From Vagococcus zengguangii (lineage in GTDB: Bacteria > Bacillota > Bacilli > Lactobacillales > Vagococcaceae), in contig NZ_CP039712.1 of NCBI RefSeq assembly GCF_005145005.1, positions 1,594,501 through 1,658,500 on the forward strand: a DNA stretch of 64,000 nucleotides, written 5' to 3'. The position numbers and the translations under genes are program-made. Shown one piece after another: positions 1,578 to 61,915 of the stretch (position 1 is the stretch's first letter; each line of letters begins with the position of its first letter). The notes below the pieces were generated by a model, which worked only from the letters and a program-made list of their open reading frames with translations, did not search any database and was not told the DNA's origin.

Positions 1578-2765
1578 ATGATGAAATTAATTAAAAATGC
1601 CGAAGTTTACACACCTGATTATTTGGGCCGAAAAGATTTGTTATTAGCAAATGATAAAATTATCGCTATCGAGGACCAAATCAACGCTGAAGGATTTCCG
1701 GTGCCAGTCGAAGTAATCGATGTCGCTGGTAATATTGTCACACCTGGTTTTGTAGACTGTCATTTCCACTTAACTGGTGGAGGTGGCGAAGGAGGTTATC
1801 AAAACCGCACACCTGAAGTGACATTATCAAAATTAACAACAGCTGGTGTTACAACTGTTGTGGGATGTTTAGGGACTGACGGTATTGGACGTGATATGGT
1901 GGCGCTAATTAGCAAGGCTCGAGGTCTTGAAGTTGAAGGAATTTCAACTTACTTATATGTTGGTTCGTATCGTTTGCCTGTCAAAACAGTAACTGACTCT
2001 ATTATTAAAGACTTACTAACGATTGATAAAATTATTGGGATTGGTGAAGTGGCAATCGCTGACCACCGCTCTTCTCAACCAAGTTTTGAAGAATTCACTC
2101 GTGCGGCTGCTGATGCACGAGTTGGAGGAATGTTATCTGGTAAAGCCGGGATTATCAATGTCCATCTAGGTGATGGGGCCAACCCATTTGGCTTAATTGA
2201 ACGCACAGTCGATGAAACGGAAATTCCAATTAGTCAGTTTTTACCGACTCACATTAACCGTACCGAAGCAGTTTTTGAAGCGGCAATTGACTATGCTAAG
2301 CGCGGAGGATATGTTGACTTTACTGGTAGTGAAAATCCTGAATTCTGGGAGAAAAGCGATGGCGAAGTGCGCTTTAGTAAAGGTCTAAAACGACTGTTAG
2401 CAGAAGGTATCTCAATTGACCAAATCACAATGACTTCTGACGGACAAGGAAGCTTGCCTTATTTCGATGAGGATAATCAATTTCTTGGTTTAGGAGTTGG
2501 AAGTGCTAAATCATTATTAGTTGGCATTAAAGATGCCGTTCTAAACGAAGAAATTCCATTAGAAACAGCAATCCGAACCATTACTAAGAATCCGGCAACG
2601 ATTTTAAAATTGGAACATAAAGGGAGCTTAGATGTTGGAAAAGATGCAGATATCTGTGTCTTAAATCCTGAAACACTAGACTTAGAAACAGTAATTGCTA
2701 AAGGAAAAATTATGGTTCAAAACCAAGAAGTTAAAGTTTGGGGAACATTCGAACAAAACTATTAG
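1578..2765 (+). CDS. iadA: Beta-aspartyl (isoaspartyl) dipeptidase
   Basis: A 395-residue amidohydrolase that removes N-terminal isoaspartyl residues from dipeptides made by protein damage. The metal-site motifs stand in family order: HFH (His62, His64), VHLGDG, PTHINR and TSDGQGS with the catalytic Asp. The segment GIGEVAIADHR has Glu157 where, from memory, the E. coli enzyme has the carbamylated bridging Lys162. The ribosome site AGGAG (1563-1567) precedes two adjacent ATGs (1578 and 1581), and either could start. A strong terminator follows. The nearby YfcC transporter is on the same strand but behind its own terminator, so co-regulation is not certain. Confidence 0.9.
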   Translation: MMKLIKNAEVYTPDYLGRKDLLLANDKIIAIEDQINAEGFPVPVEVIDVAGNIVTPGFVDCHFHLTGGGGEGGYQNRTPEVTLSKLTTAGVTTVVGCLGTDGIGRDMVALISKARGLEVEGISTYLYVGSYRLPVKTVTDSIIKDLLTIDKIIGIGEVAIADHRSSQPSFEEFTRAAADARVGGMLSGKAGIINVHLGDGANPFGLIERTVDETEIPISQFLPTHINRTEAVFEAAIDYAKRGGYVDFTGSENPEFWEKSDGEVRFSKGLKRLLAEGISIDQITMTSDGQGSLPYFDEDNQFLGLGVGSAKSLLVGIKDAVLNEEIPLETAIRTITKNPATILKLEHKGSLDVGKDADICVLNPETLDLETVIAKGKIMVQNQEVKVWGTFEQNY

Positions 2766-2820: not shown

Positions 2821-3101
2821 CTTATATTGCTCAAAAGTCCAAGCACTCGCAAGCACTTTATTTAATCCGGCTTTTGGGTGCTGCTTTTTCGACAATATGC
2901 TGTGACTCTCAATAATTGTTACACAATTTTCGTCGTCCCACGCATATTGCTCAAAAGCAACCCGTACCCGCAAGCACTTTTATTTAATCCGGCTTTTGGC
3001 ATCAGCGTCTGCGGTAATATGATGAAGTTCTCAAAAGGATTTTTAATCCTTTCGTCACTTCATGCATATTACTTGAAGCTAAACGATGCCTCAAGCACTT
3101 T
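2821..3101. repeat. Tandem ~120-bp repeats folding into long hairpins
   Basis: Two full units and one partial unit repeat with a period of 120-122 bp. Shared anchors are GCAAGCACTTT (2849 and 2970; a variant at 3091), AATCCGGCTTTTGG (2864 and 2986) and TATTGCTCAAAAG (2825 and 2945; a diverged form at 3067). Between the anchors each full unit folds into one long hairpin, at 2876-2963 and 2998-3090. The paired arms differ in sequence between units but keep pairing: GTAATATG/CATATTAC against CAATATGC/GCATATTG, and GGCATC/GATGCC against GGGT/ACCC. The unpaired motifs TCTCA and CGTC stay constant. No convincing protein frame runs through. The block lies just 3' of the ABC-transporter operon (minus strand). 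Confidence 0.8.
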
Positions 3102-3921
3102 ATTTTACCAAACGGTCTTCGCCAAACCATTTCTCGCTGATGGTTTTAGCTTGGCCATTTTCAATTAGGTTGTTGATAGCTTCATTTACTTTATCTGCTA
3201 AATCTGTTTCACCTTTTCTAAAACCAATCGCATAGTCTTCTTCTGGAAATTCAGTTGCTAACATTTTGAAGTCATCTTTGTTAGTTTTTTGAGCTAAATA
3301 ATAATCAGCAAAAATCTTATCAATTAATAAGCCATCTATACGACCTGCTTCTAAGTCCATAAAGGCTTCTGTATAAGCTGGGTAAGAAATTGCTTCCTGG
3401 TCTTTAACAAAGTCCTTTAACAGTTCAGGATTATTATTAAATGCGTCTTCTCCGCTAGAACCTTCTTGTAGTCCAACAACTTTTCCATCTAAATCATTTG
3501 GTGTTCTCATTTTATTTTTTTTCAATGTTACGACTACTTGATCGTTTTTCAAATAAGTTTGACTGAATGTCACTTGCGCTTGACGTTCTGAGGTAATCGT
3601 ATAACCATTCCAAATCGCATCAATGGTGCCATTTTTCAATTCTGTTTCTTTCATTGACCAATCAATTGGTTGAAATTCAACAGATAAACCTAGCTCTTCC
3701 CCAACTTTGTCGGCAAGTTCAATATCAAAACCTGTCAATTCTCCCTTGTCGTCACGGAATCCCATTGGTACGAAACTATCGTCTAAGCCAACTACTAACT
3801 TGCCTCTCTCCTGATAATCAACAAATGTACGCTCTTCTTCTTTTTGAGCGTTACAAGCGGTTAAACTCACGCCTAATCCAATTAAACAGGCTCCTAATAA
3901 TACTGATACAGCTGCTTTCAT
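3100..3921 (-). CDS. Amino-acid ABC transporter substrate-binding lipoprotein
   Basis: A 273-residue extracellular solute-binding protein of family 3. The signal peptide ends in a lipobox, SLTAC, with Cys23 as the lipid anchor. The body has the typical start GKLVVGLDDSFVPMGF and the segment FDIELADKVGEELG. ITSERQAQ holds the Arg that normally binds the ligand carboxylate. It is the third gene of the operon, 12 bp after the ATPase, with AGGAGG before the ATG. The operon sits behind two T-box leaders whose specifiers read as CAC (His). A histidine transporter like the HisXYZ systems described for Firmicutes is therefore the best guess. The ligand is inferred. Confidence 0.9.
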   Translation of the reverse strand: MKAAVSVLLGACLIGLGVSLTACNAQKEEERTFVDYQERGKLVVGLDDSFVPMGFRDDKGELTGFDIELADKVGEELGLSVEFQPIDWSMKETELKNGTIDAIWNGYTITSERQAQVTFSQTYLKNDQVVVTLKKNKMRTPNDLDGKVVGLQEGSSGEDAFNNNPELLKDFVKDQEAISYPAYTEAFMDLEAGRIDGLLIDKIFADYYLAQKTNKDDFKMLATEFPEEDYAIGFRKGETDLADKVNEAINNLIENGQAKTISEKWFGEDRLVK

Positions 3922-5235: not shown

Positions 5236-5520
5236 AAATCCTCTTAGCCTAATAGCTAAGAGGACGTATATTCATACGTGGTGCCACCTCAATACGTTCT
5301 CACTTCACAGTAAGAACCTCATGCAGTCAATAAATGACTGACAAGCAGTAACGAGCTCAATCGGTTAAAACTAATAAATCCATCTCAATCACTTGATGAA
5401 TCTTTCATTTTAACAACTCATAGGTGTGTGTTCAATCCGTTTACTTACTCCGTTTTCAGCTACCGGGAGCTCTCTTTAAGTAGGGACGCATTTACTTGGC
5501 CTAATCATTGTTTTTGCGTT
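5236..5520 (-). promoter_or_regulatory. T-box riboswitch, proximal copy (His specifier)
   Basis: On the minus strand the conserved T-box AGGTGGCACCACG lies at 5289-5277. It is followed by a terminator hairpin (CCTCTTAGC/GCTAAGAGG, 5240-5263) and a run of eight Ts. Upstream are the Stem I marks AGAGAGCTCC and GGTAGCTGAAAACGG. The specifier region reads GAACACACACCTATGAG. The CCTA pairs back with TAGG near the leader start, which places the trinucleotide CAC (His) in the specifier position with the usual A after it. ACA (Thr) is the main alternative. Uncharged tRNA would favour read-through into the permease gene. Confidence 0.88.
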
Positions 5521-5529
5521 ATTAAAAAA

Positions 5530-5817
5530 TAAAAAAGTCCTCATGACCGCAGTCATGAGGACGAATAATTACTATACGTGGTGCCACCTCTAATTTTTCT
5601 TTATCTCACAATAAAGAACTTAGTTAGTCAATCTATATTGACTAAAAGCGGTAACGGGCTTAACGAAACTTCTTACTTAATACGTGTTCAGAAGTTTAAC
5701 TCATAGGTGTGTTTCGATTCATGTTCTTACTCTGTTCTCAGCTACCCAGAGCTCTCTATCAAGAAGGGATTTATCTACTTGTCCTAATCAATGTTTGTTA
5801 CTTTGTTTATTTTTAAT
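5530..5817 (-). promoter_or_regulatory. T-box riboswitch, distal copy (His specifier)
   Basis: This is a second complete T-box leader directly upstream of the first. The T-box AGGTGGCACCACG is at 5589-5577. The terminator stem GTCCTCATGAC/GTCATGAGGAC is at 5537-5562, with Ts following. The Stem I mark AGAGAGCTCTGGGTAGCTGAG is visible (5757-5737). The specifier region GAAACACACCTATGAG aligns with the proximal copy so that CAC falls in the same place. The two copies are clearly paralogous but differ in the terminator and antiterminator arms, so the duplication is not very recent. Confidence 0.88.
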
Positions 5818-32712: not shown

Positions 32713-32771
32713 GTGTTTTCTCTCCTTTGCCCTGAATCATTTGCTGAATCAGAGTTATTATTGTCTTCACA

Positions 32772-60628: not shown

Positions 60629-61915
60629 CTAGCGTCCCAAAAATCTCATAATATCATTCCACGTAACTAACACAATTAAACCAATTAATAACACAGCACT
60701 TGCTAGCGTAATCTTCATTTCAATTTCTTGATTTAAAGGCTTACGGCGAATACCTTCGACAATGTTGAATAAAAGTTTTCCACCATCTAACATCGGAATT
60801 GGCAGTAAATTCATGATACCTAAGTTAACACTTAACATCGCAATAAAACTTAGAATAGTCACTAAGCTTTGATTAGATAATTCAGATGAAGCTTGATAAA
60901 TCATAACCGGTCCACCTAATTTATCTAAACTAAAGCCACCTATCAAATCTTTTAAGGCATTAAAGATTGTCAAGGCACTTGCTTTGGTTTGCAACGCTGC
61001 TACCTTGAACTTCTCACCAAATGATAATTTCTTCAAAATTGTCCCTGGAGAAACACCAATCATATAACGTTCATTGCCATCTTCAGTGACTTTTTCAGGC
61101 GTTATATTTAAGGTTTGTTCTTGATTATCACGTTGAATGACTACCTCTAGTGCTTTATCTTTTGTTTCTGCGATGACCTCGCCGATTTCAGTAAACTCAG
61201 CAACTTTGACACCATCAATTGACAGAATACGGTCGTCCGGTTTAAGTCCGGCTTTATCAGCAGGACTATCCACTTGCACCGATCCTATAGTACTTGACGG
61301 ATCCGACGACATCGCTCCACCTTGCATAAAAATCACTAATAGGAACAATGCAAAGGTCAAAATAAAGTTAAATAACGGTCCAGCAAAGTTCGTTAACATG
61401 CGTTGATATAATTTAGCCGATTGGAACTGCACATCTAGTGGTGCAATACGCACTTCAGTTCCATCTTCTTCAATAATCGTCGCATCATGATCAACAACGT
61501 AAGTCGTTTCTTGTTCACCGTTAACATAACCTTTAATAAATAACTTATCTTCTAAATCAGCTTCTAATAGCTCCATCGGAATACCATTAGTCAACGTCAC
61601 TTTCGAACTCGTATTAATCCTTGCAACATGACCTTCTGCATTTAATTCCACTGACAACGGTTTTCCAGGTGGTAAATCAACCTCTTCTTCCCCCATGCCA
61701 GCCATGCGGACATAACCACCCATGGGTAAAATTCTAATTGTATACAATGTCCCAGATTTATCACGATGACTAAAAATCTTTGGGCCCATTCCAATCGCAA
61801 ACTCACGTACCAAGATACCTGAGCGTTTAGCAAAAATAAAATGACCCAACTCGTGAATCACCACAATCAACCCGAAAACAAAAATAAACACTAATAATGT
61901 TTTCATATGCAACAT
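60629..61915 (-). CDS. rseP: Intramembrane site-2 zinc protease RseP
   Basis: A 428-residue membrane protease. The zinc motif is VVIHELGHFIF near the N-terminus. A PDZ domain lies in the middle (SPADKAGLKPDDRILSIDGV), and the second metal part is LLPIPMLDGGKLLF. About four membrane helices are seen. In Enterococcus its homologue Eep also cuts signal peptides to make sex pheromones, so it may process the CamS signal peptide in this window. The start is the ATG at 61915 or three codons on. Confidence 0.95.
   Translation of the reverse strand: MLHMKTLLVFIFVFGLIVVIHELGHFIFAKRSGILVREFAIGMGPKIFSHRDKSGTLYTIRILPMGGYVRMAGMGEEEVDLPPGKPLSVELNAEGHVARINTSSKVTLTNGIPMELLEADLEDKLFIKGYVNGEQETTYVVDHDATIIEEDGTEVRIAPLDVQFQSAKLYQRMLTNFAGPLFNFILTFALFLLVIFMQGGAMSSDPSSTIGSVQVDSPADKAGLKPDDRILSIDGVKVAEFTEIGEVIAETKDKALEVVIQRDNQEQTLNITPEKVTEDGNERYMIGVSPGTILKKLSFGEKFKVAALQTKASALTIFNALKDLIGGFSLDKLGGPVMIYQASSELSNQSLVTILSFIAMLSVNLGIMNLLPIPMLDGGKLLFNIVEGIRRKPLNQEIEMKITLASAVLLIGLIVLVTWNDIMRFLGR

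Follow-up and report, generated by a model that had tools for sequence, protein, structure and literature searches.

The closest described counterparts of the array studied here are dispersed palindromic repeats, beginning with EFAR and Efa-1. EFAR, described by Venditti et al. in 2007, is reportedly mostly 170 bp long with two stem-loops, and is said to integrate into stem-loop targets and to show a variable assembly of sequence types. According to an excerpt of PMC2267715, Efa-1 of Enterococcus faecalis is 163 nt long, occurs in 65 copies and forms two stem-loops side by side. Our analysis concerns a 64,000-nt stretch of the Vagococcus zengguangii genome (contig NZ_CP039712.1, positions 1,594,501 to 1,658,500), hereafter the window, which carries a tandem array of hairpin units. 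Like Efa-1 and EFAR, the family of this array is intergenic, dispersed and palindromic, and its E. faecalis members combine a long and a short adjacent hairpin over about 170 nt. Unlike them, the units of the window's genome consist of the long hairpin only, in several sequence types and with the second hairpin absent; the window's genome has tandem units with a pitch of ~121 nt, a truncated last copy and a tie to stop codons; and matches extend to 23 of the 74 genera sampled. The two-hairpin anatomy is not found in the window, where each full unit is followed by another or a truncated unit and the terminator comes after the array. Unit types are variably assembled at sites shared between V. 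zengguangii and a sister species (genome G003).

The E. faecalis record NZ_CP143580.1 contains nine sense units and one weak partial match (E 1.5e-4, unaligned). For eight of these the alignment extends over about 170 nt, and we read it as the long hairpin with another, terminator-like one behind it; locus L255 has no linker, and its second part has diverged. By simple ORF calls, five units start 4–15 nt behind a same-strand stop codon, while for the other four the nearest upstream ORF lies on the opposite strand. These members and Efa-1/EFAR are taken to be one family, matched by size and anatomy and not by letters. The record itself, 747 kb and labelled as an E. faecalis plasmid, holds PTS genes together with the nine family units and may be chromosomal sequence.

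REP palindromes go together with the RAYT (Y1) transposase. They are extragenic palindromes near gene ends, and the GTAG REPs often give the neighbouring ORF its stop codon (excerpt of PMC3733652). The family resembles them in the placement of its palindromes near gene ends and in units that supply a stop codon, but REPs are 20–40 nt long with a GTAG/CGTC foot, whereas the present units measure about 114 nt and carry no such foot tag; the CGTC pointed out in an earlier, sequence-only reading of this DNA lies inside an internal loop and not at the foot. The Y1 transposase (PF01797) gave no match in the V. zengguangii genome (G000), and identity with the REP/RAYT system was rejected on this result. 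The domain occurs in 25 of 60 genomes overall; among the 13 that bear units it is present in six (G003, G008, G010, G038, G051 and G058) and absent from seven (G000, G006, G022, G024, G025, G027 and G044).

Other comparisons were made by description only. Among the enterobacterial RU elements, RU-1 is the same as ERIC, and we know of neither stop-codon anchoring nor such tandem arrays in this group. RU elements are 127, 168 and 103 bp long (excerpt of PMC2759123), and ERIC forms one long stem-loop (excerpt of PMC2267715). The family is of similar size and likewise intergenic and MITE-like, but RU elements belong to another phylum. BOX units, which are modular, and RUP are pneumococcal repeats. 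Both are tabulated in an excerpt of PMC2267715, and the family shares with them the character of dispersed stem-loop repeats in Lactobacillales.

A known RNA family was rejected: the array has no Rfam match at the gathering score, and a search of 12 loci at E up to 0.1 returned two matches only, both far below that score. The sequence-only reading had recognized no named family, which agrees with Rfam but is too strong a statement, since the E. faecalis members fit Efa-1 as excerpted from PMC2267715. In the open-licence PMC literature, we found no description of the family beyond the Efa-1/EFAR comparisons cited here.

The array behind a substrate-binding protein gene

Direct repeats spaced by 121–122 nt lie at 2821–3101 of the window, between two convergent genes. 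The earlier reading had described two full and one partial hairpin repeat in this place, and the arms that it named are all present; its hairpins stood, and the extents of the units were corrected to those listed below, on the minus strand, where the third piece is a unit head. Matches are to model R1, built from 27 units of the genome (alignment A1).

3100–3921, minus strand: ABC-transporter substrate-binding protein gene (ORF list; named by reading the translation)
2986–3098, minus strand: full unit 1, with stem 1 of the GGCATC/GATGCC type (R1 match, 117.4 bits, E 9.2e-28; genome C1:1597486–1597598; among the units used to build R1)
3053–3056, minus strand: GACG, followed by A, the opposite conserved loop side of unit 1 (from the sequence)
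3029–3033, minus strand: TGAGA, a conserved internal-loop side of unit 1 (from the sequence)
2864–2977, minus strand: full unit 2, with other stem sequences and the same architecture (R1 match, 118.8 bits, E 3.7e-28; genome C1:1597364–1597477; also among the units used to build R1)
2824–2856, minus strand: truncated third unit, 5' head only (GTGCTTGCGAGTGC...; repeat families D1 and D3)
2773–2807, no strand assigned: perfect inverted repeat resembling a terminator, which separates the array from the convergent gene (inverted repeat I1)
1578–2765, plus strand: convergent neighbour gene, dihydroorotase/amidohydrolase-like (named by reading the translation)

The minus strand is the orientation in which the array's position makes sense. 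Along it, the stop codon of the binding-protein ORF is followed, after one base, by unit 1, a linker, unit 2, a linker, the cut-off third unit, whose head ends before the inverted repeat, and then the terminator-like inverted repeat itself. Folded as the plus strand, unit 2 reaches -37.5 kcal/mol (z -5.5) and unit 1 -41.5 kcal/mol (z -7.0), and none of 200 shuffles folded as well as either full unit; the minus-strand stretches of the two units gave z values of -5.4 and -5.0. Two ORFs cross the array (2731–2973 minus, 2878–3168 plus), and coding DNA was rejected as an explanation on the impression that the units share no reading frame.

Two tandem T-box leaders (5257–5517 and 5554–5800, minus strand) stand upstream of the ABC-transporter genes that bear the array at their 3' end. 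Elsewhere in the window, an L31-Firmicutes ribosomal protein leader lies at 32722–32754 on the minus strand.

Dispersal and structure of the units in the genome

With the array as BLAST query, the 2.19-Mb genome returned 30 matches at E below 0.01, several of them within one array. R1 found 51 matches, of which 43 were sense matches at E<1e-6, the E-values of the model searches being rough; the remaining eight were weak, and five of these were the antisense of known units. Model R2, built from nine units of other types (alignment A2), contributes one extra unit, at 61420. The total of 44 units in 25 arrays of one to three units, two of the units being incomplete (84 and 72 nt), bears out the interspersed repeat family that the sequence-only reading had listed among its options. 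Units are 109–114 nt long with the foot GTG[C/A]TTGA..GAAA[G/T]CC, and by our own sorting they fall into at least five hairpin types that have their ends and architecture in common and little stem sequence. A mosaic unit (L007:1517–1626, genome 1435717–1435829) joins outer stems of the GGCATC type to a core of another type, a hint of exchange between units.

A structured 3' UTR had been another of those options, and the arrays do occupy such a position. By simple ORF calls, 22 of the 25 arrays have a first unit that starts 0–7 nt after the stop of an ORF on the same strand or overlaps that stop, including the unit at 2098026, which provides the TGA of a 316-codon frame. Outside these 22, the unit at 2177136 provides the TGA of a 72-codon frame, so that 23 of 25 arrays stand directly behind a same-strand stop codon, overlap it or supply it. 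The two exceptions, at 1776753 and 807748, are antisense and lie beyond the 5' ends of opposite-strand ORFs. Dispersed repeats seldom keep so strictly to one position, and some targeting rule is needed to account for it.

Truncated copies like that of the window recur in the genome. In 22 of 25 arrays the last unit is followed at 5–8 nt by a unit head, defined by at least six of the eight letters of GTG[C/A]TTGA, and in 17 of 25 by a head with at least seven letters; seven of eight letters would be expected by chance within the 23 scanned positions at ~0.02 per array, by an arithmetic that assumes even base use. At sites S2, S3 and S5 of G003, the head equals the first 26–49 nt of a full unit in the same array, and in V. 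zengguangii its best match is often a unit in another array. Lone heads were seen at 1448944, at 1902485 as a chimera, and in genome G025. Solo heads as pre-existing landing sites were considered and rejected: among the 30 pattern loci L031–L060 (62 other pattern places were left out), 12 lie within arrays, and at the other 18 (L036, L042–L056, L059 and L060) no further head behind a stop codon was seen by eye. Given this outcome and the single heads seen, we read the heads as cut-off last copies. The terminator behind a unit often seems to resemble the unit's first arm in both Enterococcus and Vagococcus (e.g., E. raffinosus, L187), and from one species to the next the two sequences seem to vary in step; the terminator hairpins at L187, L183, L094 and L122 resemble the first arm of the unit of the same species.

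Each unit of ~114 nt is one long interrupted hairpin. Above the foot G(T)GCTT..AAGCCG, a GTTTA-like bulge separates stem 1 from stem 2, and an RA/CGA internal loop separates stem 2 from stem 3; the apical stem on top bears a second purine loop in one unit type. The compensatory changes that the sequence-only reading had noticed between two units extend to the family as strong covariation. In A1, which was not fitted to a structure, 96.1% of cells are paired, 27 of 38 pairs show double changes, and the covariation score is 0.516 against 0.176 for shuffles that ignore relatedness (none of 500 as high), with slid versions at 0.149 or below. Model R3 was built from 102 cross-genus matches (alignment A4, 88 distinct rows); here 92.7% of cells are paired, 36 of 38 pairs show double changes, and the score is 0.569 against 0.177 shuffled, with slid versions at 0.088 or below, pair and GU counts leaning to the R1 structure to which A4 was fitted.

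The unpaired motifs, which the earlier reading had taken to be constant, are largely so: by hand count, TGAGA is kept in 26 and GACGA in 21 of the 27 A1 rows. In a kink-turn, two helices are joined by a 3-nt bulge and, next to it, tandem sheared G-A pairs; the GACGA/TGAGA of most A1 units can be read in this way, but also, with RNAalifold, as a 2x3 GA/AGA loop that a C-G and a G-U pair close. In A4, the G of the GTTTA-like bulge (G17) is constant in 88 of 88 rows, the A of the RA loop (A29) in 95%, C127 and G128 of the CGA loop in 86% each, and the G of the terminal CCG in 95%. Over all A4 columns, unpaired positions are no more conserved than stems (mean majority 0.68 vs 0.73). The unpaired residues that stay constant across genera suggest selection at some level.

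GU and AC cells, counted in pairs with at least 60% Watson-Crick cells, number 32 to 19 in A1 (p 0.09), 2 to 6 in A2 and 99 to 38 in A4; with one A4 row per cluster, the counts are 58 to 27 (51 clusters), 45 to 12 (30) and 28 to 8 (20). Since GU mostly exceeds AC, folding as sense-strand RNA is favored on balance, with the caveat given for A4.

Occurrence and turnover in related genomes

Further copies, which the sequence-only reading had proposed to seek by a model search, are found well beyond the genome. R1 is positive in 13 of 60 relatives and R3 in 64 of 295 genomes of the order, V. zengguangii included in both, with 23 of 74 genera represented and only a single match in some of the 64 genomes; both scans used stricter filters and scored at most 62 (relatives) and 12 (order) candidates per genome, so that the numbers of matches within a genome are lower bounds. 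Carriers identified by a pattern scan and an R1 match include Vagococcus fluvialis and V. silagei, and Enterococcus devriesei, E. raffinosus, E. thailandicus, E. termitis, E. lactis, E. hulanensis and E. sp. 10A9; in E. phoeniculicola, R1 matched the pattern-scan locus weakly (E 3e-4). Units of the relatives G024, G022 and G027 agree, in score and in coordinates relative to their flanks, with units of V. fluvialis DSM 5731, V. fluvialis bH819 and V. silagei, and we take these genomes to belong to those species. Among the 50 pattern-scan loci, those of Flavobacterium, SAR86, Verrucomicrobia, Coxiellaceae, Methylotenera, Sphingobium, Opitutia and "uncultured bacterium" were discarded as chance hits, since R1 did not match them at E 0.01. 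The Vagococcus/Enterococcaceae loci L120, L134 and L151 also had no R1 match at E 0.01.

Among 72,556 plasmid records, 72 contain a match, including 61 of Enterococcus and six of Lactiplantibacillus; the window's array itself gave none in this collection. Of eight plasmid sites inspected, six have a same-strand annotated gene end at most 140 nt upstream; a seventh has a small same-strand hypothetical gene at about 140 nt, and the eighth (NZ_CP034945.1) no close gene in an incomplete gene table. Unit 1 of the window gave no match in the phage collection. Among the matches listed there are records of Listeria phage LM 4-.. and Enterococcus phage Efs/IME without annotation, and five inspected phage-labelled records are marked UNVERIFIED. 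The matching contigs look like host DNA, and no phage occurrence was counted from them. OR846588.1, OR846953.1 and PQ520241.1, for example, are unannotated contigs labelled as Listeria or Enterococcus phage that carry Enterococcus-type units.

The position rule is looser outside V. zengguangii. We merged 70 of 94 R1 matches into 59 arrays, three of them from G003, leaving out V. zengguangii units, copies of one place and weak matches. By simple ORF calls, 29 of the 59 begin at most 30 nt from a same-strand stop codon or overlap it, and by our own counts the nearest upstream ORF is on the same strand for 43, on the opposite strand for 15 and absent for one.

Sister species have arrays at the same orthologous gene ends, but the unit types there often differ. 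Seven of ten G003 stretches around units match V. zengguangii loci with arrays or remnants, the long flank matches being mostly 76–89% identical; the stretches L197, L198 and L200 had no match among the V. zengguangii loci given. In our own reading of the shared sites S1–S7, S3 has the same pair of unit types in both genomes, S4–S6 have one unit in common and otherwise differ, and S1, S2 and S7 differ in type. G003 lacks an array at the window's orthologous site, where the stop codon leads into a brief terminator-bearing stretch; the aligned gene ends lie 87 nt apart there, against 339 nt in V. zengguangii, and no clear target stem is kept at the empty site. The best match in G001, of the same genus, likewise has no unit at this site. 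One Vagococcus gene end (L119:4191) shows three states in three genomes: an A-type unit in DSM 5731, a truncated head only in G025, and in G022 (L236/L234) a truncated head plus a unit GGTGGCATAAAAATCG... of the same architecture with unrelated-looking stems, perhaps a further subfamily missed by R1. Empty counterparts were absent for the plasmid LacI site among the eight listed of nine records covering at least 80% of the query, plus one partial record (47 records matched), and for the aspT site among 40 of 168 records listed; no target-site duplication was recognized by eye.

Four orthologous unit pairs of V. zengguangii and G003, a small hand-picked sample, contain 16 changed base pairs, of which 10 are broken, four are exchanges between GU and Watson-Crick pairs and two are double changes; the base pairs were defined on the V. 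zengguangii sequence, which tends to favor the counting of breaks in the other genome. Recent selection on pairing thus looks weak, and a predominance of broken pairs is the pattern expected if copies start out as well-paired hairpins and decay afterwards. A fifth pair, left out of this count, is the unit at S6 (2183886–2184001 in V. zengguangii, G003:C1:28481–28596), which is letter-identical between flanking genes of 86–89% identity and hints at conversion or recent copying.

Origin and role of the units

We hold, with moderate confidence, that the array is an EFAR-like, non-autonomous mobile palindrome, Lactobacillales-wide, tied to the 3' ends of genes and in all probability part of the transcribed 3' UTR. 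The units are dispersed, nearly all arrays stand in sense behind a stop codon and consist mostly of whole copies with a cut-off last one, and the corresponding gene ends of a sister species carry different types or numbers of units, or none. New units would arrive, or be copied, as complete hairpins at the 3' ends of genes, through a helper or through template switching between units; they would turn over in place and be transcribed as part of the 3' UTR. They may persist because an insertion just after a stop codon does no harm and the mRNA tolerates a terminal hairpin at its 3' end or is mildly protected by it. Any helper would not be a Y1 transposase of the unit-bearing genome itself, because seven of 13 unit-bearing genomes lack one and six have it; our search for a helper enzyme, which covered the Y1 class, found none. 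Further points against a mobile palindrome are that GU outnumbers AC in most sets (45 to 12 at 30 clusters), which a DNA-only element does not predict, and that unpaired residues are constant across genera. A more specific proposal, of low probability in our judgment, is an order-wide mobile class of hairpins that would enter genomes by recognizing the stop codon, for instance via the mRNA or the terminating ribosome, so that copies would be born as 3' UTRs whose constant purine loops would bind a putative host protein for mobility and 3'-end control.

A rival is a functional 3'-UTR RNA kept by selection gene by gene, which would block 3'-to-5' exonucleases, be cut by RNase III or present its purine loops to a protein, and so set expression of the upstream gene at the mRNA level. 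Sense orientation, stop-codon anchoring, the constant unpaired G17, A29, C127 and G128 in the 88 A4 rows, and the sense-strand GU excess in A4 and its clusters agree with it, as does the fact that the sense strand is the one rich in purines and hence able to form sheared G-A pairs. We nevertheless regard it as unlikely, though worth keeping in view: the GU excess is weak in A1, which was aligned without structure, and reversed in A2, the changed pairs of orthologous units are mostly broken, unit number and type vary between sister species down to the empty window site in G003, and 231 of 295 genomes of the order have no R3 match under strict filters. Paired changes with fixed loops had been offered by the sequence-only reading as what a selected RNA shows, and they lose that force here, given the broken pairs and since unit-wise palindrome copying or template-switch correction would look alike. 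Mutation of this kind could by itself produce the covariation if template switching between arms (quasi-palindrome correction) or gene conversion between units rewrote both arms. Double changes far exceed one-sided, pair-keeping changes (178 vs 34 cells in A1, the latter summed by hand), and the mosaic unit and the identical S6 unit fit such rewriting; internal loops, however, stay mismatched and constant across genera instead of being corrected, and GU exceeds AC in A4, which leaves this a marginal candidate. Head-to-tail hairpins with unpaired stem bases and constant ends, in a constant slot with exchangeable contents, also recall attC-like sites, folded as single strands, of an integron-like or other site-specific recombination system, but there are no gene cassettes between the units and one genome carries arrays at 25 places, and we consider this very improbable.

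The mobile palindrome that we prefer links an apparent species-level repeat of E. faecalis to one structured family across Lactobacillales that has no Rfam match. If the family is mobile, it has a helper still to be discovered; if it is functional, it would set the 3' ends of many mRNAs, including those of Enterococcus and food bacteria. With the covariance model, both mobility and function become testable from existing RNA-seq data and strain collections.
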